This document shows, piece after piece, positions 5,586 through 61,172 of a stretch of 64,000 nt of DNA; position 1 is the stretch's first letter; the number at the start of each line of letters is the position of its first letter. The stretch is from NCBI GenBank assembly GCA_039566865.1, contig CM076943.1, positions 35,906,663 to 35,970,662 on the forward strand. The letters are read 5' to 3'. Below the pieces are notes generated by a model that did no database searches, was not told the origin of the DNA, and saw nothing but the letters and a program-made list of their open reading frames with translations. Position numbers and translations under genes: made by a program. The stretch comes from Aurelia coerulea (Eukaryota; Cnidaria; Scyphozoa; Semaeostomeae; Ulmaridae).

Positions 5586-7640
5586 TCAGGTTTTAGGAAA
5601 AAGCTTGTAATATGTCTTTCCGAATTCATTCATGGTATTGTTCAGACCACGAGGTTTTCTCGTGTCGAGCCTAGTCATCCAGACATTTTCATAAAATTCC
5701 AGAGTGTCATGATCACCCTCTACATTTTGCAAGATGTGTACAGTTAAGTCTCTGTCGAAATCACAATCATAGCTGTCGAAAAAGTGTCTTCCCAGTTCTG
5801 TGGCGTCCGGATCATGCTTTGCATCGTTTCTATGCTTGTTGAATCTTTGACTCAATGTTGTCGATGTGTAGCCTACGTATAACTGTTTGTGTTTTCTGCA
5901 CTCGGCGGCATAAATAACATTTTTTGTGGAACAATTCCCTCCTTCAATGAGACATGATTTACCTGAATTTATGTTGTGCAATTTGTCCACTTGACCCATG
6001 TGACTGCACAGTTTGCAGGGCCGGCCCCGCTTCTTTGTGCCTTTCTGCGTGCATCTGACGCTGTAACCATTTCGTCTGATCTTTTGTTCAGATTGAATTA
6101 GTGTGGCTCGAATATTAGTATTTCTTCTGAAGGAAACGATTGGAGGCTCTGGAAACACATTTTTAAGCTTTGGATGTTCATCAATCATGGTCCGATAGTT
6201 CCCGTGCAATAGTTTAGAAATTCCTTTGAATTTCTGATGCCAGTTCACCACTAGGGGTATCCTCTGATTTGAAATGCTGGATATTTTCGCTTTTGGCTGT
6301 AGTAATTCCTGACGATCCTTCTGCGCAACGACCTCAGCAATTCGTATCATCTTGCCTCTTGAATATCCTCGCTGAACATAAAACTTGACAAACTCGGATG
6401 CATGCTTTCGATAGTCGTTGATAAGAGTGCAAATTCTTCGGATTCTAATGAATTGTGAAAGTGGGTTGGAGCGTATGGTATGCGGAGGATGATCAGATGA
6501 ATTATGTAAATAGGTGTGTGTTGCTGTTGGTTTACTGTATAGTTCGGTTAGGATTTTGCCATCCTGGATCTTTACCCTTGTATCAAGAAATACAACGTTT
6601 GAGCTCGAGTATTCCGATGTAAACTTGATATTCGAATTGTACTTGTTTTTGGCAGCGTATGAATTACAAAATGATAGAAAATGGTTAAGACTTTTCAGGT
6701 CATCTTTCCATACGAAAAAAATGTCATCTATAAATCTGACCCATGAGACTGGACTCTTGCCATATAGTGTTGCATAATCTTCTAATAATTTCGTTTCAAA
6801 TTGAGACATAAATAGGTTTGCAAAATTCACGGCCATTGGTGTTCCCATGGCAGTTCCTTTGATTTGATGAAAATACTGTCCCATGAAAGATAACGTGTTC
6901 GACTTGAGGATAAACGATATGAGGTCAGAAATGACCTTGGACGGAATTGACTTATTTTTGTGTTTTTCTAGCGCTTCGAAACATGCTTTAGCGCCCTCGT
7001 CATGGTCGATATTAGGATAAAGAGAGCTCACGTCCATTGTTACTAAGAAAATATCGTTCTGATCTTTAATTTCATTGTTTAGACTCTCGACATGCTTTAC
7101 AAATTCCGTTGTATCTTTGATGTAGGAAGCAGTTTTAGTTGCAGCGGGTTTTATGAAGCTGTCTACCCACTCGGAAAGTTTAGCTGTACATGAATCATAC
7201 CCACTACAGATAGGGCGCAGTGGTGGAAGATTTTCAAAGACTTTGTGAATCTTCGGTAGGCCATAAAAACAGGGCGTTCTATTACCCTCCCTTAATTTGG
7301 TATCTTCAACGTCGTCGATGTAACCATTATTGAGCAAATCAGTGATTTTCTTGTTTAAAATCTCTCGATAATCCGGGTTTGGATCTGTGAAGATTTGTTC
7401 ATAGAATGTTTCATCTTGAAGTGTCTGAAGGGAAGCTGCATTATAATCGGTTCTGTTCATCAAAACGATACCATTGCCTTTATCAGCTGGCTTGATAATA
7501 ATTGATTCATCCGTTTTGAGTGCTTTGAGAGCATTCCTTTGTCCCTCTGTTAGATTATTCCAGTTTTCATTACTTTTCGAGTTGATGTGTTTGCCAATGT
7601 CTCTAATGTTGTTATCTATGAAAGTTGACAATCCATTGAC
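5586..7640 (-). CDS. Penelope-like element: reverse transcriptase with C-terminal GIY-YIG endonuclease
   Basis: A 681-codon open frame encodes a Penelope-like retroelement protein. Near the N-terminus is IIIKPADKGNGIVLMNRTDY, followed by the polymerase: TPCFYGLPKIHK, VTMDVSSLYPNIDHDEG (catalytic D), IKGTAMGTPMAVNFANLFM, and FIDDIFFVW (catalytic DD, about residue 305). The C-terminus holds CX2C-like cysteines (RPCKLCSHMG) and a GIY-YIG-type nuclease, seen as NVIYAAECRKHKQLYVGYTS with a following RFNKHRNDAKHD. The frame opens with TTG rather than ATG and is open upstream to about 7640, where it meets another PLE, so the extreme N-terminus is probably lost. With no internal stop it is the best preserved PLE here. 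Such elements use telomere-like or hairpin-containing 3' ends. Confidence 0.88.
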   Translation of the reverse strand, partial: VNGLSTFIDNNIRDIGKHINSKSNENWNNLTEGQRNALKALKTDESIIIKPADKGNGIVLMNRTDYNAASLQTLQDETFYEQIFTDPNPDYREILNKKITDLLNNGYIDDVEDTKLREGNRTPCFYGLPKIHKVFENLPPLRPICSGYDSCTAKLSEWVDSFIKPAATKTASYIKDTTEFVKHVESLNNEIKDQNDIFLVTMDVSSLYPNIDHDEGAKACFEALEKHKNKSIPSKVISDLISFILKSNTLSFMGQYFHQIKGTAMGTPMAVNFANLFMSQFETKLLEDYATLYGKSPVSWVRFIDDIFFVWKDDLKSLNHFLSFCNSYAAKNKYNSNIKFTSEYSSSNVVFLDTRVKIQDGKILTELYSKPTATHTYLHNSSDHPPHTIRSNPLSQFIRIRRICTLINDYRKHASEFVKFYVQRGYSRGKMIRIAEVVAQKDRQELLQPKAKISSISNQRIPLVVNWHQKFKGISKLLHGNYRTMIDEHPKLKNVFPEPPIVSFRRNTNIRATLIQSEQKIRRNGYSVRCTQKGTKKRGRPCKLCSHMGQVDKLHNINSGKSCLIEGGNCSTKNVIYAAECRKHKQLYVGYTSTTLSQRFNKHRNDAKHDPDATELGRHFFDSYDCDFDRDLTVHILQNVEGDHDTLEFYENVWMTRLDTRKPRGLNNTMNEFGKTYYKLFPKT

Positions 7641-8257
7641 CCATTGAATTCGAAGAAATTGTTCTTAAGCACCAACTCGGTTAGTTCTACGAGAGAATTT
7701 GTTCAGACCGACTGATCTTCTCGACCGTCCAGGGCAACCCGAAGAGCTTCCAGTCCCTCATCATGTGATATGCTCGGGTAAAGACCAACCACATCAACCG
7801 TGCAAAGAATCGCATTATCGGGAAGCTCGTCAAGACTAGCAATCTTCTGCAAAAATTGGTTGGTATCCTTTATGTACGACCTGACATTTTTAGCCAATGG
7901 TTGTAAGTGATGATCCAAAAACTGAGATATGTTCTCCGTATAAAACCCACAGTTTGAAATAACAGGCCTACCAGGAACGCTATTCAGCCGCTTATGAATT
8001 TTAAGTAATAAATAAAATCTTCCTAATCTGGGATTATTAACCAATAAGTAATCTAATGTCTTGTCGTCGATATCATCTCGTTCTCTAGTATTATCAATCG
8101 CAATATCAATTATCTGCTGTAAGTGCTCCGAAGGATCGCTATCAAGCTCTGCATATACTGCAGTATCCCCTAGCTGACTTTGGGCCTCGTAGCACGTTTT
8201 ATAAGTTTCTCAAAAGGACTTTCTCGAAAAAATCTCTTGTAAAATCTGAGCATATTA
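7641..8257 (-). pseudogene. Second PLE family, N-terminal and central fragment
   Basis: The frame 7703-8044 encodes LGRFYLLLKIHKRLNSVPGRPVISNCG and CTVDVVGLYPSISHDEG (catalytic D box), and continues past a stop into LVLKNNFFEFNG, the strand that precedes the GTAMGT box. It is cut there by the start of the neighbouring PLE. Upstream, broken frames to about 8257 give DTAVYAELDSDPSEHLQQII, the PLE N-terminal region. It differs clearly from the 5586-7640 copy, so two PLE families lie head to tail. It abuts (ATT)n on its 5' side. Confidence 0.75.
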
Positions 8258-18178: not shown

Positions 18179-19712
18179 GGAATTTATTTAAAGTTGGATA
18201 CAAAGTTTAGTTTACTCTATAAATAGGGCAACTAATTCAAACTCACTATTTACAAAAATACAATATTTACAATTTCAGCTACTTACAGATATTACAATTG
18301 CAACTGTCTCCATTCCATTGTTTGACATGTATTTTGAACGAGGCTATAGATTGGCTTGACTTTATCTCATCAGGTAAAGCGTTCCAAAGAATACTGCCTC
18401 TGAATGCAATTTAATTTAAGTCGTTTAAAACAGTTCTAGCTTTTGGTAGCTGTAATAGATCTTTTGCTCTAAGGTCGTAAGTCACTTCCTTTCTTATGAA
18501 CAGATCCCACGTGAATGTTGGATTTTGGCAATTTAAAGACTCATAGACCTCAGTCATTACCTTATGGATGTTTTTTACATGAACTGTCTGCTCATTGTTT
18601 CCTTGTAGAAGCTCTTCGAATGAGGCTTCATAATCATTGAAAAGTATACGTAGAGCACGTTTGTGGATTTTGTTTATCTCCCTGTTGGCGGTTTTTCCAC
18701 AAAACATCCAAATTAACGGACAATAGCTTAGGCTTGACAGTATAAAAGCATTGTATAGCAGCCTTGCTTTCGTGAAGTCAAGTAGTCTTGCCACTCTAGA
18801 GAATGCAGTTACTTTTCTACTTGTTTTGACACACAAAGACTTGACATGATCTGTAAACTTCAGTTCAGAGTCAATGGTAATTCCAAGAAGTTTCACATCA
18901 TCTTTTGCGACTAAAACCAGATCATCAATTTCAATACAGATGTTTGCACTTTTTGGTAGCCCAAGGAACATCACTTGAAATTTTCCAGGATTTGCCACCA
19001 TGTGGTTAGAGTCGAACCATTTAAGAACATTTTCGATATCAATTTCTAAACATGTGGCTACATCTCCTATGTTTTCTCCAGAGGCTTACAATGTATTATC
19101 ATCAGCAAAATTGCATATTTCTGATTTCTCAATGCAAAATGTAAGATCATTTATTTATACATTAAACAATAGCGGCCCAAGAATTGAACCCTGTGGTACA
19201 CCTGATGAGATATAGTGCCAATCACTGAAGGTGGAACCAATTTTAACACGCTGTTTTCTGTGTGAGAGGTAACTATGCAATAAATTTAAGCTACCAGTCC
19301 CAAAGCCATAGGCTGCAAGTTTTGCTAACAATAGGTCGTGGGGCAAGCAGTCGTAAGCTTTGGAGAGGTCCATAAGTACCATGCCCATGATCCCTTTATT
19401 GTCTAGACATTTGCGACATGCTTCAACTAACTTTATCAAGGCATGCTGGGTGCTATATTTCTGTCGAAATCCACACAATAGATGTGAAATCTTGTCCTTC
19501 ACGAATATGAGCATTTGAGTGTACATTAGTCTTTCATATATCTTAGAAAGACATGATAGCACACTTATTGGTCGAAAATTCTTCTTTGTAGCCGAATCCC
19601 CAGTTTTGAAGAAAGGTGATAGGTCAGCTAACTTAAGATTAGATGGAAACGTGCTACTTTGGATTCCATTATTTATGAGGTGGGTGATTTCTTTGTAGCA
19701 ATGGTTTGCAGC
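18149..19712 (-). pseudogene. LINE J (jockey/CR1-like), 3' half of a split copy
   Basis: The frame 19155-19712 encodes SATKKNFRPISVLSCLSKIY, GFRQKYSTQHALIK, GMVLMDLSKAYDCLPHDLLL and SSGVPQGSILGPLLFN. A stop region at about 19150-19080 includes the CNFADDNTLY catalytic box. The frame 18411-19001 continues with MVANPGKFQVMFLGLPKS, VKLLGITIDSELKF and INKIHKRALRILFNDYEASF. The 3' end is a (TAA)n tail at 18147-18178. The 5' half lies at 24495-25404, separated by the 4778-bp composite element. The 8-bp repeat TCAATAAA at 18141-18148 and 25405-25412 flanks the LINE. Confidence 0.82.
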
Positions 19713-19714
19713 TA

Positions 19715-20013
19715 CAATCCTTGCCAAAACAACTTGAAAAAAATTTCATTTCTCTCTTTTCTTCTCCGACCAAGCATCCAAAATACAGTGCAGGAAACTT
19801 CACGCTACTCTTTTCCCTTGCCCCCCTGCCCCCCCCCCCCCTGAACAATGTTGGTCCGAAGCACTGATCACCAGATATCACGAAAATCGCTTTGGCTGCG
19901 TTGTTGTGCCCTTGAGAAATGCGTAATCACGCAAGGAACCAACATTGTAAGGGGGAGGGGGGGAGAGCTGAGCAAAAATATGTGATTTTTTTCAAGAGTT
20001 TTGGCAAGGATTG
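19715..20013 (+). repeat. Left 299-bp terminal direct repeat of the composite element
   Basis: It begins CAATCCTTGCCAAAACAACT and ends AAGAGTTTTGGCAAGGATTG, so it has inverted ends of its own (about 16 bp, extending imperfectly over a run of A/T). It is identical to 24199-24492 over its length except that one poly-C run has 13 C here and 8 there. There is no TA at its inner boundary (next bases TCCGAG), which argues against an independent insertion of this unit. Confidence 0.9.
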
Positions 20014-20522
20014 TCCGAGAGGGCAATTTTTGAAAAAGTTCATCAATCTGAACCAAAATTGGCACAAGTGTACAGTTTTGTGTACTTATCAACATGCAGG
20101 TGTAAAAAATTATCTCAAAACGTTTATGATGAAATTATGACGTCATCGATATGAGAAATGAAGGAATTGCAGGGCTCTTACGGAAATGATGGAGTTATAA
20201 CTGCAGGAAACTTGTCACGTGACGGGAAATACTTGCAATACATGGGGAAAAGAGTTTTACGCGTGTTCTCATGGAAAGTGGCAAAGTACACCAAAAACAT
20301 AGGTCTAACGGCGTGTACAACTTCCATAAAATAGTGGTCCCCTGCAATTCATAGGAAATGGGTGAAAGATGTAGGTAAAAGTGGAGCATTTATGCAAGGT
20401 TCTTCCATGGTGGCACTGGAACGGGCTGCGTCACGATTAGTTTGTGATGTCAGATTAGTGCGTGTAGAATAGTTAGCTAATAATACGTTAAACGAAGGAG
20501 AGAGCTATCAGTTTTAAGAAAG
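20014..20522 (+). promoter_or_regulatory. Left internal arm and presumed upstream region of the transposase gene
   Basis: No gene is visible. The first bases after the terminal repeat (GGATTGTCCGAGAGGGC, reading from its last bases) resemble the complement of the sequence just inside the right repeat, as if an older inverted repeat lay there. A TGACGTCAT octamer is at about 20138. The transposase ATG at 20523 follows directly. Promoter function is inferred from position. Confidence 0.4.
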
Positions 20523-21638
20523 ATGGCTAAAAGTGCGGTAAGGAAAACGAAAGCGATAGATCCGAAAATTCGAGCCATGGCCTATGTTCTGCGGAGAAAT
20601 GGCACGAAAATGGCAACGATTGCGAAAAAATTGCATATCTCCGTGGCATCAGTGTATCGGTGCTGGAAAGATGGTGAGCTGTCTTGCAAGGGTGAAAAGC
20701 GGGAGAAGATCTGTAAAGGCGGTAGGCCAAAGAAACTATCTGCAAGAACAAAGGCACGGTTCATACGGCAATTTTCAAAAGCAAGGGAGAAAAATGTGAA
20801 TGTAAAAGTGATGGATGTGGTTAAAGAAGCAGAACTTCAAGGGCTAGCAAGCTACCGCACATTTGCTCGTATTTTGAACTGTGCAGGATTTAAACATCTG
20901 CAGCCAAGGAAAAAAGGTCTCCTATCGTGCAAAGACAAGCAGGCAAGACTGCAATATGCCCGGAAGATGCTAAGGAAACACCGCAGTAGTTTCTGGACCG
21001 AGGACGTTGCCATGTATTTAGATGGGGTGTCTTTTGTTCACAAATTTAACCCATTTCGTGACGCAAAGACACCAAGTGGGAGGGTGTGGAGGAAAGCAAG
21101 CGAAGGATTGCAATGGACGACGAAAGGGAGCAAGAATTTGCCTGGGGGGCGTCGTGTATATGTGCTGGTTGGAATTAAATTTGGAGTGGGGGTAACATTG
21201 GTGAAAACTTACAAGCACATGACTGGGAAATACTTCGCAGATTTTGTAAAAAATGACCTTGAAAAGGCTCTGAAAAGAGGCAAGGTGAAAGACAGAAAAG
21301 CTAGGGGCATGAAGTATTTTGTAATGGACAACGACCCCTGTCAGAAAAGTGCTGCTGCTAAGTCTGCATTGAAAGAAATTGGAGCAAACGTCGTAGAAAT
21401 CCCCCCACGATCACCTGACCTCAACCCAATCGAAAATGTTTTCCACAATGTTCGCCGTGAGTTACGGAAACAGGCCCTGGAGCAGACACTTGTCCACGAA
21501 GATTTTGCAGCATTCGAGAAACGTGTCGTTGCGACCCTGCATAATTTTAGTCGTCAAGTCATTGACAGAACAATTGAGAATATGGACACACGATTGAAAG
21601 CCATAGTTCAAAACAAAGGCTATAGAACGAAGTATTGA
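20523..21638 (+). CDS. Tc1/mariner-superfamily transposase (DD34E)
   Basis: An intact 371-residue protein that would cut and paste DNA at TA sites, acting in the nucleus. Residues 1-60 form a helix-turn-helix (IDPKIRAMAYVLRR ... MATIAKKLHISVASVYRCWK); residues 60-150 form a second DNA-binding part starting GGRPKKLSARTKARF. The catalytic triad is visible: D167 in MYLDGVSF, D269 in YFVMDNDP and E304 in SPDLNPIENVF, with 34 residues between the last two. The length is normal for Tc1-like transposases. The start ATG has A at -3 and G at +4, a good eukaryotic context. It is a single exon with no stops. It converges on the Rep gene at 22222-23622 within the same TA-flanked unit, which suggests both belong to one element. 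Confidence 0.92.
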   Translation: MAKSAVRKTKAIDPKIRAMAYVLRRNGTKMATIAKKLHISVASVYRCWKDGELSCKGEKREKICKGGRPKKLSARTKARFIRQFSKAREKNVNVKVMDVVKEAELQGLASYRTFARILNCAGFKHLQPRKKGLLSCKDKQARLQYARKMLRKHRSSFWTEDVAMYLDGVSFVHKFNPFRDAKTPSGRVWRKASEGLQWTTKGSKNLPGGRRVYVLVGIKFGVGVTLVKTYKHMTGKYFADFVKNDLEKALKRGKVKDRKARGMKYFVMDNDPCQKSAAAKSALKEIGANVVEIPPRSPDLNPIENVFHNVRRELRKQALEQTLVHEDFAAFEKRVVATLHNFSRQVIDRTIENMDTRLKAIVQNKGYRTKY

Positions 21639-22221
21639 ATTTTAAATGAACATTTTGTATAACGAGATATTTACATAGCATTATTTTCTCTTCATGTATC
21701 GTAATCTTTTGTTTATGAACAATTGTTTATGAGCTAAATGATGCGTTTAATGTCGTAACGTCTCACTGTACACGTAATGAGCCTTCTGGTGTAAGGTTTC
21801 ACGATTGACACATCGATTGACAGGCGTACGTTTCAACCCTTTCGCCCCCCGGAGACTGCTCTTTCTAAAAATATTTGTTACAGAGGGGTGTTCATTATCG
21901 TAACCTATCTGCTGGGCTCATTGGTAAACGCCTATTAATAATGAGTAGCGCAGAAAAGTGGGCTGTAACGATTGACACAGCACTGGTAAAAAGATATTTG
22001 ATGCTCAAGTTCTTTTTAGGAAAATAGGTTGACACTTGTTATGAGCCCTGTAACTTTGGCGTACGCCAAATTGTAAACTATCTGAGGATGTTAGTACACT
22101 GTTTACGTCTTTGAACAGTTGAGAAGCTGAAAAGAAGCTAACTTGCACAATTCAACATCGAATTAAAGGAAGATTCCTTCTACTGTCAATCGTTGTGTCA
22201 ACCGTTGTGTTACTTGTTGCC
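21639..22221. other. Convergent intergenic region with iteron-like repeats and a palindrome (candidate replication origin)
   Basis: No open frame. A short motif recurs on both strands: CGATTGACACA at 21802 and 21969, CGATTGACAGG at 21814, GGTTGACACT at 22028, and inverted copies at about 22184-22192 (TGTCAATCG) and 22195-22205 (TGTGTCAACCG). Among them is a perfect 16-bp palindrome, TTTGGCGTACGCCAAA, at 22055-22070. Repeated short binding sites plus a hairpin-capable palindrome next to a HUH-Rep gene is how rolling-circle origins are usually built (family knowledge). That this one is an origin is inference. Confidence 0.5.
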
Positions 22222-23622
22222 TCAATTTTGGGGAGCATTTTCATGCGCCTGTGCAGTTGAAGTCACATGACCGTCCAGCAAGAAATGGGAGAAGCAGTAC
22301 GCGCATGGCTGAATGCACTTTTGCTTCTCAATTTCTATCTGATGACGGAATTCAATGTGTCTCCAACGCACGCGCATCATTTCACTCTCTCGGTCATCAA
22401 TGGAACCTCCCTTTACATACAAAATTGGCCCTTTAGACGTGCAGAATACTGGGGTATCACTTTCAAGAACTATGTCCTTTGCAAAATGAGTTTTGGGTGT
22501 AGACAAGTGCATTGGTTGTCCCTCTAAAAGAAGAAGGAGATCTGCCCAGGGTATTATGATTGGATTAAATCTGAAGTCATTGAATATTATAACTTCGGCA
22601 GTCTCCACACCCATTAGTGCATAGGTGCATGTAGCTGGATTCACAAAGCATTTATATATTATTCGTAGCGGATCAAGAATAAATGTCTTTCCACAATTGG
22701 CTGGTCCAGTTATAAGGATGTTACGTCCCTTTCCGCGCCCCTTTTCCAACAAATCGACAAAAGCATTCTTGAATTTCCCAGCATCCATGTGATTGAGCTG
22801 CAAGATCTCCTCTGCACACTCACGCCATTCTCCGTTACAAACACAATCAGCATTTAATGCATTATTCAAAATATCCATTCTTGATTGTCGCGCTCTCTCT
22901 ATATTCTCTTCTGCAGTCTCAATTGCCCACACCGTCTCTATCAGTTCAGACACCGCCTTCTCTGATTTTGCAAGCAAGAAATCATACAGCAATGCGTCCC
23001 CTTTCCTCTGTTTGGTGTCTTTTGCAAGTGCCATTAGTTCCAGCCTCGATCTGACGTTTTCGTTCAAAATAAGATCGGCTACATCCTTGTTTGTATAACG
23101 TGTAGCTTTGGCTTTACGTCGTTTCTTTGCACTGCTGGCTCTCAATGTTTTAGGCGGCTGTATCTTCTTTGGATGGCCTGGACTACACACGAAATGTTTA
23201 TCGTACTTTTTTGCATATTTATATGCAGTAAAATAGCATTTGTGTCCTGAAAAATGGACGCTGATGCCGTGTGTTTTTCCAATGTGCTCCTTCACCTTCT
23301 TCCAGCGCCTCTGCTTTCCTAGCAATATGGCTAAATGGAAATGTTTCCCGCCATCTTTGTGTTCTTCCATGCTGCAAGCCCATTGCTTTACGTCTACAAG
23401 CCCTGTTACTTGGAACGCACTCACAACTACAGCTGCAAATGACTGGCGATCAAATCTCTTGACATTTGCACGACTGTATGTGACTAAATATACTTTTCTT
23501 GCACAAGTAGGTTGGAACACCGCGGCAAATTCAATGTCCTGTTCGTCATTCCCCCCTTCACACTCAACTTCAACTTCATTTGTTTCCACATCTATCGACT
23601 CTTGAAAAGTATTGGACGCCAT
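22222..23622 (-). CDS. Rep-like protein: HUH endonuclease plus superfamily-3 helicase
   Basis: An intact 466-residue single-exon protein resembling replication initiators of small single-stranded DNA replicons. Such proteins nick one strand at an origin through a tyrosine and unwind the DNA. Residues 42-145 look like the HUH domain: motif 1 KVYLVTYSRANV, metal-binding GKHFHLAI (H94 and H96), and a tyrosine/lysine motif TAYKYAKKYDKH (Y134/Y136, K138/K139). Residues about 300-425 look like the helicase: Walker A LITGPANCGKTF, Walker B EVIIFNDFRF and motif C TPVFCTS, then an arginine-rich RVRWRHIEF. The tail has clustered cysteines (C436, C440, C443). The ATG has A at -3 and G at +4. I cannot say by eye whether it is closer to parvovirus NS1 or to CRESS-DNA Rep. 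Its place beside the transposase, inside shared ends, makes an element-borne role more likely than a stray viral insertion. Confidence 0.85.
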   Translation of the reverse strand: MASNTFQESIDVETNEVEVECEGGNDEQDIEFAAVFQPTCARKVYLVTYSRANVKRFDRQSFAAVVVSAFQVTGLVDVKQWACSMEEHKDGGKHFHLAILLGKQRRWKKVKEHIGKTHGISVHFSGHKCYFTAYKYAKKYDKHFVCSPGHPKKIQPPKTLRASSAKKRRKAKATRYTNKDVADLILNENVRSRLELMALAKDTKQRKGDALLYDFLLAKSEKAVSELIETVWAIETAEENIERARQSRMDILNNALNADCVCNGEWRECAEEILQLNHMDAGKFKNAFVDLLEKGRGKGRNILITGPANCGKTFILDPLRIIYKCFVNPATCTYALMGVETAEVIIFNDFRFNPIIIPWADLLLLLEGQPMHLSTPKTHFAKDIVLESDTPVFCTSKGPILYVKGGSIDDRESEMMRVRWRHIEFRHQIEIEKQKCIQPCAYCFSHFLLDGHVTSTAQAHENAPQN

Positions 23623-24198
23623 TTTCCCAATAATTTACTTCAAACTGTCCTCTCATTCGGCAGTTTAAGAATCGTTTACCCTTTTATTCCCGAGTTTTTC
23701 TGTATTTAACGAAAATGATTGAAACTTAATGACTTTTCTTATAATTGCATGGCCATAATGAAAATGTATACTGTGACCTCATCTCTTCAATTTTGATCTC
23801 GCCAACCCACATAGCATCTAACTATACGTCATTCATAAAGTGTCCCTATTCATGTATCAATACAGTTCTAATCCAGGCATTTGATTGCACCTTTAATTGC
23901 TCCTTAGGGGCCAATAACAAGTACAAATATAATTCTAATTGTGCTCATTGTCTAGAATGATGAAATTCAAATTTGTAACTAATTGGAAAGCCCACTGTTC
24001 TCTTAAAATTGAATTATGACGTAGATTTCACCCATGCTATCAAGGAATTGTGAAAATGGGTATAATATGACGTCACAAATCCAGAACCCTAACAAATAAC
24101 TGTTTTTTTCCTTCAGTTTCGTGATCTACACTATCGAATTACCCTGCAGCGCAAAAATCAGCTCAAACGACTGACTTTTAGAAATTCACCCCTTCAGA
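23623..24198 (-). promoter_or_regulatory. Right internal arm and presumed upstream region of the Rep gene
   Basis: No gene is visible. It contains TGACGTCA at about 24068 (the left arm has TGACGTCAT). The last bases before the right terminal repeat, read inverted (GGATTGTCTGAAGGGG), match the left arm start imperfectly. Upstream position relative to the Rep ATG implies promoter content, not shown by any motif. Confidence 0.35.
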
Positions 24199-24492
24199 CA
24201 ATCCTTGCCAAAACAACTTGAAAAAAATTTCATTTCTCTCTTTTCTTCTCCGACCAAGCATCCAAAATACAGTGCAGGAAACTTCACGCTACTCTTTTCC
24301 CTTGCCCCCCTGCCCCCCCCTGAACAATGTTGGTCCGAAGCACTGATCACCAGATATCACGAAAATCGCTTTGGCTGCGTTGTTGTGCCCTTGAGAAATG
24401 CGTAATCACGCAAGGAACCAACATTGTAAGGGGGAGGGGGGGAGAGCTGAGCAAAAATATGTGATTTTTTTCAAGAGTTTTGGCAAGGATTG
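24199..24492 (+). repeat. Right 294-bp terminal direct repeat of the composite element
   Basis: It lies in the same orientation as 19715-20013 and is identical to it apart from a shorter poly-C run. Its inner neighbour is TTCAGA, not TA; its outer neighbour is the TA target duplication. Confidence 0.9.
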
Positions 24493-24494
24493 TA

Positions 24495-25404
24495 GCTTAA
24501 GCATGTCAACAGGAATACCGCCACTTGTTTTCTTTGATTTATCTAATCGATAGATTTCGCTAAAGAGTTGGGTGGGGTCTACCTTGGAGAATTCCAAATT
24601 TCCCTGGGTATCATACATATCCTTGATTTTTTTAATACTTGGGTGATTAGCATACTTATTGATTGCATCTAAAACCTAAGGGGGAATATTAATTAAATCC
24701 TGGCATTTTAGTTTATTCAATAGAGAAATTTATGTTTATCAACTATAACTATTGCCGCACGTCAACCTCAAGATTATATTTAACGGGAATATTAAGTGTT
24801 TCTACAATATTTGCAAAGTAGGAATTGAAGCGCTCGGCAACTCGTTCTCGACCAGAACTATTTTATCAGTAGCTGTACATGTTGATGAGAACAATGGCTT
24901 AAACGTTTTCCAAAAAGTCTTTTCTTTACCTGCTTCTGTGGAATTTATTTTACTGTAATATTCTCTCTTGGCATCCTTGATCATTTTGACAACAAGGTTT
25001 CGCTGTACACTGTACCTTTTTTGTCATATTCGCTTCCGCTCTTATTTGCAATGTTCTTAAGCCTAGTTCTCAACATCATTGCTTTTCGGAGCTCTTTCGT
25101 CACAAATGGTTTGTTGTTACCTCTGACTCGAACAGTTTTGTGTGGGGCATGTTTATTCAGTGTTTCCACAAAAACATTTTCAAACTCTGTGAGGTCATCT
25201 GGGTTTGTTTCCTGGATTCCGCCTGTTAGATCTGATAGAAAACGACTCTCAGAAAACTTTTTATAATCGCGAAATCTAATACGTTTTGGCTGGAGTTTTG
25301 TGAATTGAGTTTTAAGTACTGTGTAAATTAAGTGATGCCAATCACTAAACCCAGTCTCAAAAGACTGGCTCGCAAAGAAACTGTGTTTCATATTAGTTAA
25401 CATC
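24495..25404 (-). pseudogene. LINE J, 5' half of the split copy
   Basis: Broken minus-strand frames give MLTNMKHSFFASQSFETGFS, a VRVRGNNKPFVTKELRKAMM block, REYYSKINSTEAGKEKTFWK, and ...RLDKSKKTSGGIPVDMLKL, which ends exactly at the composite element and continues at 19712. These blocks match the intact copy at 50757-52969 in order (GNNKPHVTKALKK, GKEKTFWKTFKPLF, LDKSKKTSG). It lacks the endonuclease domain, so the copy was 5'-truncated on insertion; the TCAATAAA duplication follows at 25405-25412. Confidence 0.8.
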
Positions 25405-50315: not shown

Positions 50316-50756
50316 ATGTTGGATAGGACAAATCTTCTAGCAAATGCGGGAAGTAGGACCAATAACCAAGGGAGGGGGGAAAGGGTTCCACTTGTTGCCA
50401 CATACCATCCAGCACTCAATAGTTTGGGGAAGGTTGCCAGGAGACTCCATTCTATGCTCACAAACACGGAGGAGCATAGGGCGGTGTTTCCTGAGCCACC
50501 TTTAATAGCATCTAGGATATGTAAGAACCTTAAGGATATACTTGTTAGAGCTAGGCTCAGTGAGGGAAATGGGGGGGGGGGGACTGATAAGAAGAGAAGT
50601 TGTCGTTGTGGTAAATCTCGTTGTCAAGTGTGTAATGTCATGAATAATAGTGAACATTTTCATTCAAACATAGATAGCCGGGAATATAGGATAAACTATT
50701 CGTTTAACTGTGACTCGTCAAATGTTGTGTATTTGTTGGAATGTACTGTTTGTTAA
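50316..50756 (+). pseudogene. PLE fragment: linker and start of the GIY-YIG domain
   Basis: The plus frame gives VATYHPALNSLGKVARRLHS, VFPEPPLIASRICKNLKDIL, a cysteine pattern CRCGKSRCQVC and SSNVVYLLECTVC, the strand that opens the GIY-YIG nuclease. The rest is replaced at about 50752 by the LINE J insertion. It corresponds to the C-terminal third of the 5586-7640 protein (VFPEPPIVSFRRNTNIRATL), but is another family. Confidence 0.8.
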
Positions 50757-53143
50757 CTTATGTTAAGAAAGAACCAAAAATTATCAAATATAGAAATTAC
50801 GCAAAATCTTCTCATCAAGACTTCTTAGCTGAAGTCAATAATAGCCTCCAAGCAAGTATGCCAGAAAATTACGATAAATTTGAAGAGATCATAATAAAAA
50901 TCCTAGATAAACATGCTCCCATAAAAACAGCAATGGTTAGGGGCAATAACAAGCCTCACGTGACTAAGGCGCTGAAGAAAACTATGATGAAAAGGACAAG
51001 GTTAAGAAACATTGCAAATAAACCCAAAAGAACGGAGGATAAGGACAGATACAAGGCTCAACGAAATCTAGTAGTTAAATTAAACAGAAATGAAAAAAGG
51101 AATTTCTTTGCCAACCTCGACCCTGTTACTGTTGGAAAAGAAAAAACCTTTTGGAAAACGTTTAAGCCCCTTTTCTCAGAAAAGTCCAGCAAAGGCAGCC
51201 AAAAAATAATACTTGTTGAAAATGAAGCTATCATAGATGATGAAACTGAAATAAGTAATCTCTTTAACACCTATTTCGTGAACATAATTGATACTTTGCC
51301 CATTGACAAAACGGTGTCCACATCTATAGTCCCAAATACCTCAAATGACGTAGTGGCAGATGCGATAAAAAAATACGAAAATCATCCTTGTATCACTCAA
51401 ATAAAAAGACACATGACTGGAAATGACATATTTGAATTCAAGAGTGTCAGTCCCTTGGAGGTTTGGGAGGAGATCAATAAATTAGACAAATCAAAAAAGA
51501 CCAGCGGCGAGATTTCCACAGATATTGTTAAACTGATATCAGGATGTTCCTTAGAACATACAACTTATTTTATAAATAAAATGTTCTCAAGTAATGAATT
51601 CCCCGGAAAACTTAAACTGGCTGATGTCTCCCCGATCTTTAAATGTGGTGAGAGTACACAGAAGGCAAACTTTCGGCCAATAAGTGTCCTGTCAGCACTC
51701 TCCAACGTGTTTGAGCGCATTATGTCTCAACAGATACAGCCATTTACTTGTAAATTCCTATCTAGTTTACTATGTGCTTTTCGAAGTGGGCATAGTACAC
51801 AGAACGCGCTTTTCCGACTCATTGAGACTTGTCGTAAGACACTCGATGAAAAAGGGATAGTGGGGATGGTGCTAATGGACTTGTCAAAGGCATATGATTG
51901 TCTCCCACATGATTTACTTATAGCCAAACTTGCAGCCTATGGATTTGGGCCAAACAGTCTTGAACTAATCTCAAACTATCTGTCACAAAGAAAACAACGC
52001 GTTCAAATAGGTTCAAAATTCAGTGAATGGCAGGAGATAGTTTCAGGAGTTCCACAGGGCTCAGTTCTCGGTCCACTTTTATTCAATATCTTTGTCAATG
52101 ACTTCATCTTCGCCATGAAGTCCTCACACGTCTGCAACTTTGCAGATGATAATACTGTGTATGCATGTGACAAAGATGTTGAATCAGTGGCAATGAGACT
52201 TGAGGATGATATCTCTAGAGCTCTTGACTGGTTTAAAGATAACAGAATGGTGGCAAATCCCAAAAAATTTCAAGTAATGTTTCTTGGCCTGAAGCAGCAT
52301 CAAGAATTTCTGCTAGAAATAGAAAACAAAATAATAAATGTGACAAGGTCTGTTAAACTTCTTGGGATAACTGTTGACGATGAGCTGAAATTTGACAAGC
52401 ATGTGAAAACACTGTGTCAACAAGTTAGCAGAAAAGTCAGTGCATTCTCAAGGGTTGCACCTTACATCGATGAAAAGAAAGGGAAGATCCTTTACCACAC
52501 ATTTATAAAGTCAAATTTTAATTATTGTCCACTTATCTGGATGTTTTGTGGTAAAACGCAAAACAAAGAAATAGACAGAGTTCACAAAAGAGCTTTGCGA
52601 ATACTTCTTGAGGACTATGCATCGAACTTCGATGAGCTTCTCCAAAAGATAGATGACACTAGGGTCCATGTAAACAATCTACGTAACTTGATGATAGAGA
52701 TATATAAGTGCCTATCGTGCGAAAATCCATCCTTTCTGTGGAATATTTTCCAGCGAAAGGACCTTACATACAATCTAAGATCAGGTTCAATATTAATGCT
52801 ACCACAAGCGAAAACTACAACCTATGGGACCAGTTCATTGACCTTTAGGGGTAGCATCCTCTGGAACAGCCTACCTGACTCTATAAAAAGCTCGCCATCT
52901 GTTGTATGCTTCAAAAAATCGATAAAAGAATGGAAGGGTGAAAACTGCACATGCAAAAATTGCTTGTAGCAACAATAACTATGGAAATCTCTCCGAAAAC
53001 AGTAATCATCTGTAAATATATTTATTTTCTTTATATTATTGTAAATTTTTCCTTTGTAGATAGTTGGTTTGAATTAGCTGGTGTATTTTAAGCTATTGTA
53101 AATACCAACTGTAAATAATTTAATAATAATAATAATAATAATA
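50752..53143 (+). mobile_element. LINE J, best copy, 5'-truncated, with (AAT)n tail
   Basis: This insertion begins inside the PLE fragment and ends in an (AAT)n tail at 53121-53143, the same tail as in the two other LINE J copies. It lacks the endonuclease, so it was truncated on insertion. The TA two bases after its tail was then used by the pogo-type element at 53148. Confidence 0.8.
50757..52969 (+). CDS. LINE J reverse transcriptase, 5'-truncated, long open frame
   Basis: The frame (open from 50741, about 738 codons within the LINE) carries the linker (GNNKPHVTKALKKTMMKR, GKEKTFWKTFKPLF), the polymerase (ANFRPISVLSALSNVFERIM, LCAFRSGHSTQNALFRLIE, GMVLMDLSKAYDCLPHDLLI, SGVPQGSVLGPLLFNIFVND, CNFADDNTVYACD with the catalytic DD near residue 470), MVANPKKFQVMFLGLK, VKLLGITVDDELKFD, and the end with VHKRALRILLEDYASNFDE and a cysteine tail CTCKNC. 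No stop or frameshift occurs. The endonuclease domain is missing, so it can supply reverse transcriptase at most. The first residues read from PLE flank. Copies at 18149-25404 and 26668-28149 are its decayed relatives. Confidence 0.85.
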
Positions 53144-60150: not shown

Positions 60151-60519
60151 TATATAGATGTACAGCTACAATCTTGGCCAAGATACTTGGGACAAATCAT
60201 AAAATTGCACTACTTCGGCCTTTGATTGCGTGCCCACCGCTCCCCTCGTTTCAAAGTTGCTTTAATCAAACGCCTTTCGACTTTCTCAACATTAACATTG
60301 AAGTAGGGGGGAGGGGGGATTAGGAGACTCTAAACGTATGTTTTCTCCTCGATATTTTAGGAAACATCATGAAGACACTGAAATTTGCCTGTGTCCCAGC
60401 TTCTTTTGGTCAGGATTGTAGGTATAAAAATCGAATAAAGATAAGGTAACACACAAACAAACAAACAAACAAACGAAGATTACTAGCAAATGCAGTACTT
60501 CCGCCCCACTGTCATTATG

Positions 60520-61172
<653 letters not shown>

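Follow-up and report, generated by a model that had tools for sequence, protein, structure and literature searches.

A Rep-like gene and a transposase within shared ends have been described in the truffle Tuber melanosporum, whose geminivirus-like transposon carries a Rep-like open reading frame (ORF) and transposase ORFs within terminal inverted repeats (TIRs), and is amplified in the genome (Liu et al. 2011, PMC3198968; here and for the other cited elements, statements follow the available parts of the articles). In the window, by which we mean the whole 64,000-nucleotide stretch of Aurelia coerulea DNA analysed here, a 4778-bp unit at positions 19715-24492, starting with CAATCC and ending with GGATTG, resembles this element in that a Rep and a transposase gene lie in shared ends and were amplified in a eukaryotic genome. 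It consists of a body (INT) between two long direct repeats (LDRs). The truffle element differs in being decayed (Rep is interrupted; of the transposase ORFs, one is interrupted and one truncated), in its 37-bp TIRs, the lack of an obvious target duplication, its geminivirus-type Rep and its fungal host, and the available description mentions no LDRs, arrays or footprints (PMC3198968). For Teratorn, a teleost fusion of piggyBac and a herpesvirus, rolling-circle concatemers have been proposed, the unit between two transposon copies being integrated by transposition (PMC10175614). There too a replicon is joined to DDE-transposon ends, and the proposed scheme is the one we infer below; however, Teratorn unites a 180 kb herpesvirus with piggyBac, whereas the present element has 4.8 kb, a 300-bp Tc1-type end module, a transposase gene in the body and no visible virion genes (PMC10175614). 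Terminons, giant retroelements of rotifers, can likewise include Rep genes and occur as head-to-tail arrays (PMC6431247). Acropora CMITEs are also short inverted-repeat elements found in tandem arrays, in corals, but are piggyBac-related, with a TTAA target and a length of about 100 bp, and no Rep is mentioned in the available text (PMC2872659). Beyond these precedents, we recognised in the available text of open PMC papers no description of a Tc1-type element that is intact, encodes a Rep like that of parvoviruses, ends in nested LDRs and occurs in arrays resembling concatemers. A Rep-plus-transposase element is already known, in decayed form, from the truffle, and there is a real chance that the type found in the window is a class of its own.

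Three broader groups also compare. Tc1/mariner elements (Sleeping Beauty and others) leave short excision footprints and ordinarily consist of a single gene between two inverted repeats; the window element shares their DD34E transposase and TA duplication, but also encodes a Rep, has nested LDRs and occurs in tandem arrays. The Reps of parvoviruses (NS1, or Rep in adeno-associated virus) and of CRESS viruses consist of an HUH nuclease followed by a superfamily 3 (SF3) helicase, an order matched here by the predicted fold, but no capsid gene is found among the frames of the 4778-bp unit, and integration likely proceeds via the DDE transposase. Helitrons have an HUH protein, rolling-circle copying and tandem arrays, with a RepHel carrying a superfamily 1 (SF1) helicase, no target duplication and no inverted ends. 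An HUH protein, tandem arrays and, probably, rolling-circle copying are common to both; the SF3 helicase, TA duplication, inverted ends and separate DDE transposase set the window element apart.

We give a probability of roughly 55% to the following reading: the element is a two-gene rolling-circle replicon (INT plus one LDR, ∼4.48 kb) whose LDR serves as portable Tc1-type ends, and which is pasted at TA as LDR-(INT-LDR)n. A bolder proposal, which we put forward tentatively and at somewhat less than even odds, is a new class of nuclear, self-replicating rolling-circle plasmid, in which a detachable palindromic cassette of Tc1 ends would be origin and attachment unit at once and the transposase would paste concatemers from n=0 to at least 6.

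An earlier note, made from the letters alone, had placed two intact, convergent, single-exon genes in a TA-flanked unit. Its borders are exact to the base, with TA on both sides as in Tc1/mariner duplications, and frames of 371 aa (+) and 466 aa (−) were read; these are the only long genes, the remaining frames of at least 80 aa all lying opposite Rep (Table 1). The inverted outer ends it reported are present, but the anatomy had been missed, as these ends belong to direct repeats of 294-299 bp, and every such repeat is itself bounded by inverted ends of ∼28 bp. When the flanks are joined, the long interspersed nuclear element (LINE) at 50714-52969 aligns through the insertion point in one in-frame stretch (residues 112-702), and with the insert left in place the aligned stretch breaks at residues 284/286. 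Removal of the unit does restore the LINE frame at this point, as claimed, though the host LINE is not whole at the site, its residues 10-148 matching another frame with or without the insert.

The search covered the 574-Mb genome assembly that contains the window. The window family, F1, has 43 Rep copies at 97-100% identity, with a convergent transposase match at most 3 kb from Rep in 42 of them. When copies spaced 3.5-6.6 kb apart are counted as one run, the 43 copies make up 24 loci, and 28 of them stand in nine head-to-tail runs of 6, 6, 3, 3, 2, 2, 2, 2 and 2 units (two copies on contig C7, 8.8 kb apart, are tallied as singles, though one has an INT-INT joint). Over all families, 62 of the 91 scored Rep places (107 matches, less 16 that were a further stretch of a Rep gene already counted; 707 candidates) fall within 17 runs, as do 71 of the 110 scored transposase places (567 candidates) within 19 runs; the longest run in the genome has 8 units. 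A scored transposase lies near at least 68 of the 91 Rep places, a lower bound because the 23 others include every listed F3 place, yet locus L062 carries an F3 transposase. Chance or artefact is ruled out by the 43 near-identical copies, the empty site and the TA flanks, and the window element is young and recently spread.

At least five other families are present; their Reps share 42-52% and their transposases 37-52% identity with F1. In each of the families F2 to F5, sequence from array ends or from the interval separating two neighbouring Reps shows a transposase convergent with Rep and an LDR peculiar to the family; for F6, an array on contig C10, Rep was read together with one joint containing an LDR and one without. 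Units of this F6 array (G000:C10:15755233-15799325) measure mainly ∼3735 and ∼4016 bp, as would be expected of units without and with the LDR. Three loci hold ∼85% identical transposase relatives whose frames contain stops, and one of them retains an LDR at 84%. Loci L088 and L089 both hold one shared transposase piece (INT 860-2031 plus 2144-2176) and no LDR, as though trapped in a different repeat.

The pairing of the two genes is genuine and old, and not the product of two chance insertions. Rep and transposase are adjacent and convergent in the window family and in five others, inside shared ends and amplified together as in the truffle type. Their pairwise identities over eight pairs are strongly correlated (r 0.945, Mantel test, permutation p 0.0004), indirect evidence in that, apart from the window pair, Rep was matched to transposase only by equal contig size in the other seven, three on contigs above 14 kb and four on contigs of 2.7-7 kb that could partly be chance. 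Eight of the 120 listed Rep homologues share their longest-contig size with one of the 119 listed transposase homologues, against a null mean of 1.35 and maximum of 7 in 2000 draws; P0123 had no contig size, and P0001/P0187, probably a coincidental match since sizes below 5 kb can coincide, was excluded from the correlation. This co-divergence and the same pairing in six families bear out the composite nature of the unit that had been proposed. Transposase-only copies with Rep as a separate insertion would have spoken against it. Copies of the first kind do exist with these ends, among F4 relatives: runs of F4-type LDRs spaced 2.36 kb apart number 5 at G000:C20:8796040-8805724 and 4 at C19:10051725-10059048, and one unit from a 2.36-kb run (L092) and another on C10 (L093) have no Rep. 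Rep is nevertheless not an insertion with borders of its own there: in both units the last codons of Rep, encoding the tail SVPSCPRCFAEL, survive at one identical deletion joint, and its separate insertion is ruled out for F4. The transposase frame is open in L093 and broken in L092. These two units are deletion derivatives, L092 being a non-autonomous unit that is still arrayed.

The LDRs are built alike in all families. The two window LDRs differ only in the length of a C-run (299 versus 294 bp), and each is a two-tier palindrome, with outer inverted ends of ∼28 bp and, inside, a C-run plus CAATGTTG facing CAACATTG plus a G-run. Both CAATGTTG/CAACATTG and the CAAT...ATTG ends are unchanged across five aligned families, and the LDR of the sixth likewise has them. 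Folded as single-stranded DNA, the window LDR is more stable than any of its shuffles (z −6.6), with z values of −8.6, −11.6, −7.6 and −9.6 in four further families. Forty of 388 genome candidates were scored and 30 loci fetched, of which 19 adjoin INT, 10 are solo LDRs and one is a related miniature inverted-repeat transposable element (MITE; L021). All 10 solo LDRs have TA on both sides, at 9 distinct sites since the flanks of L002 and L008 coincide, and among the 30 loci they thus have the short length, inverted ends and TA duplication of Stowaway-type MITEs. In the loci read, 36 of 41 distinct outer flanks (one from L021) are TA; CTAG appears favoured as target, because 32 of the 41 end in CTA. 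F2 outer flanks are TA on both sides, and the F3 and F5 arrays have TA on their single clean side.

All six families set the LDR in INT as ...AGA|CAAT...ATTG|TCT... (TCC in F1), with no target duplication, and both INT ends begin with TCT or TCC in inverted orientation. Some joints lack the LDR. Searching the complete genome for exact patterns gave eight of these in F1, against 0 with a reversed control: five on contig C2 with one base, one with CA, one with none and one small deletion. Those of F4 have no spacer (1) or CTG (3), and the single F6 example read is a deletion. Unit lengths agree to the base, with 4185 bp for no spacer, 4186 for one base and 4182 for a 3-base deletion. Every non-deletion spacer can be built by taking 0-2 letters from either end of the LDR (CA.../...TG). 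Tc1-type excision footprints arise from such terminal letters, and by this analogy the LDR-free joints resemble them.

We then turn to the proteins. In 32 aligned Rep homologues, H94 and H96 of the HFH motif, Y136, and K312/T313 of the Walker A motif GPANCGKT are invariant, and K139 nearly so. Motif C is atypical, reading DTPVFCTSK with Lys in place of the Asn usual at that place of SF3 helicases. With its HUH motif, catalytic Tyr, Walker A/B motifs and a predicted SF3 fold, Rep has the features of CRESS- and parvovirus-type Reps, and is predicted to initiate rolling-circle DNA copying. No Pfam family reached its cut-off for this protein, a search of the PDB by sequence gave no match, and virus and phage collections (two viral-contig scans, one phage tblastn) yielded no relative. 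SNP (single-nucleotide polymorphism) counts of 6 nonsynonymous and 7 synonymous were discarded as a sign of purifying selection, because the 30 loci had been selected by Rep protein score. The transposase has the expected DD34E triad (D167, D269 and E304, the last two separated by 34 residues), matches DDE_3 above the cut-off (E 4.2e-14) in the Pfam domain search and HTH_Tnp_Tc3_2 below that family's cut-off (E 3.5e-6), and also matches the Sleeping Beauty SB100X chain (E 2.7e-10). At E up to 1e-3 there are 346 matches for Rep and 593 for the transposase, numbers which suggest that the element type may be widespread; the three species-named homologues among 240 listed for both proteins are all anthozoan (Porites, Exaiptasia and Dendronephthya).

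A rolling-circle replicon with portable ends could work as follows. A circle of INT plus LDR would arise from an integrated copy via LDR-LDR recombination. Rep would nick the palindromic LDR or its border and start rolling-circle copying into head-to-tail concatemers, a step for which the arrays, the gene and the predicted fold are in hand. The transposase would next cut the CAAT/ATTG ends of the two outermost LDRs and paste the stretch between them into CTAG/TA, with products, all of them seen, that are solo LDRs (n=0), the window copy (n=1) and arrays (n=2-6). LDRs inside arrays are likely also excised alone, which would give INT-INT joints that are precise, keep 1-3 LDR-terminal letters or carry small deletions. 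Since Rep-less deletion copies form LDR arrays, whatever replicates them or lengthens the arrays would act in trans. The initial suggestion of an element amplifying as a circle or single strand and integrating at TA fits the head-to-tail arrays and TA sites; circles, nicking, concatemers and the identity of the protein acting on the LDR are what we infer. Small contigs with Rep homologues were dropped as evidence for circles, as LINE homologues too sit on 3-5 kb contigs.

Several observations weigh against this scheme. Neither a circle nor a nick site nor any activity of the enzymes was seen, and the Lys in motif C is atypical. Five of the 41 F1 outer flanks are not TA, those of F4 are TG and GA, and in F3 and F5 a clean LDR end was seen on one side only. 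The C2 spacers are C, G, C, G and G (next to the first there is a substitution), a mix that one circle alone does not predict, and both the F6 LDR-free joint and the joint on C6 are deletions of the sort that any end joining would leave.

Other such points also favour the chief rival, a cut-and-paste, Tc1-like LDR-INT-LDR composite whose arrays and solo LDRs stem from later unequal recombination between the 300-bp LDRs, and whose Rep has another role, for example in aiding donor-site repair or copying. Private SNPs are shared within arrays, which fits concatemers and unequal exchange alike, but the array on C20 has the pattern X-A-A-A-A-Y and the last unit of the C2 array lacks a base common to four other compared units, so that unequal exchange fits at least as well as one concatemer. 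In the C17 array (L023, G000:C17:1592030-1604784), all three units, at spacings of 5679 and 5678, exceed the usual length by ∼1.2 kb, and the single unit read contains an additional insert within INT; this is either an expansion after an insertion or the copying of a circle already carrying it. Rep-less units also build arrays, meaning that Rep is not needed in cis. Nevertheless, LDR-LDR exchange alone cannot yield the LDR-free INT-INT joints of F1, F4 and F6, LDR excision being required too; runs of at least two units are frequent, reaching 8; and a Rep diverging in step with the transposase calls for a role in the life cycle. We consider this rival doubtful.

It is improbable that INT is a Helitron-like HUH transposon, put by Rep between the T and A of an LDR-TA-LDR tandem without duplication, with INT arrays resulting from rolling-circle read-through and LDRs being merely a favoured landing site. 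INT does lie exactly between the T and A of would-be abutting LDR ends, without duplication, in six of six families, and INT-INT joints exist. However, both INT ends start with the same short inverted motif, TCT (TCC/TCT in F1), and Helitrons are not known to have such inverted end motifs; an abutting LDR-LDR tandem without INT was not seen among 60 loci, and the predicted helicase fold is SF3, not SF1. Similarly improbable is an LDR that is an unrelated MITE landed in or beside a Rep/transposase circle, INT alone being the element proper: solo LDRs at TA do act like MITEs and LDR-free INT-INT joints exist, but the LDRs of the six families, though all different, agree in their two-tier palindrome and in how they join INT, cleanly readable array ends terminate in an LDR, LDRs stand between INT copies without TA duplication, and among the families read none was seen in which the TCT ends of INT itself served for insertion at TA.

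Cut-and-paste transposons depend on host replication or repair to gain copies. If the replicon with portable ends is real, its own rolling-circle initiator and detachable transposase ends would make copying independent of pasting within less than 5 kb, and HUH replication and DDE integration would be united in one life cycle. It would also be a living model of a plasmid- or virus-like replicon merging with a DDE transposon, a step for which the examples put forward until now are decayed (truffle) or giant (Teratorn). The element makes it testable whether tandem repeats in animal-type genomes arrive ready-made as concatemers.

Table 1. Features of the element and its host site (window positions).
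Feature	Position	Strand or partner	Basis
Left target-site TA (of CTA)	19713..19714		outer-flank reading
Left LDR, 299 bp, CAATCC...GGATTG	19715..20013		equals right LDR except C-run
Outer inverted end of left LDR	19715..19742	partner 19986-20013	inverted-repeat pair, 83% complementary over 29-nt arms that include one base of flank
Inner palindrome arm of left LDR, C-run + CAATGTTGGT	19818..19855	partner 19938-19975	inverted-repeat pair
INT, 4185 bp, TCCGAG...TTCAGA	20014..24198		joints; 4185/4186-bp period of LDR-free arrays
Tc1-type DD34E transposase gene, 371 aa	20523..21638	+	single open frame, domain and motif matches
Inverted repeat between the genes' 3′ ends	21801..22205 (arms 21801-21823, 22183-22205)		inverted-repeat pair
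Rep gene, HUH nuclease + SF3 helicase, 466 aa	22222..23622	−	single open frame, homologues, predicted fold
Right LDR, 294 bp, ends ...GGATTG	24199..24492		repeat comparison
Right target-site TA	24493..24494		outer-flank reading
Interrupted host LINE, portion downstream of insertion	18411..19712	−	LINE alignment
Interrupted host LINE, portion upstream of insertion	24495..25403	−	LINE alignment

Three broken relatives stop inside the right arm, at ∼22190, of the 23-bp inverted repeat (91%) at 21801-22205. Elsewhere in the window, a 692-aa open frame at 5586-7664 looks, by eye, like a reverse transcriptase with a GIY-YIG-like end, of Penelope-like type. A trinucleotide microsatellite at 60367-60897 reads in one frame as a long run of isoleucine codons.
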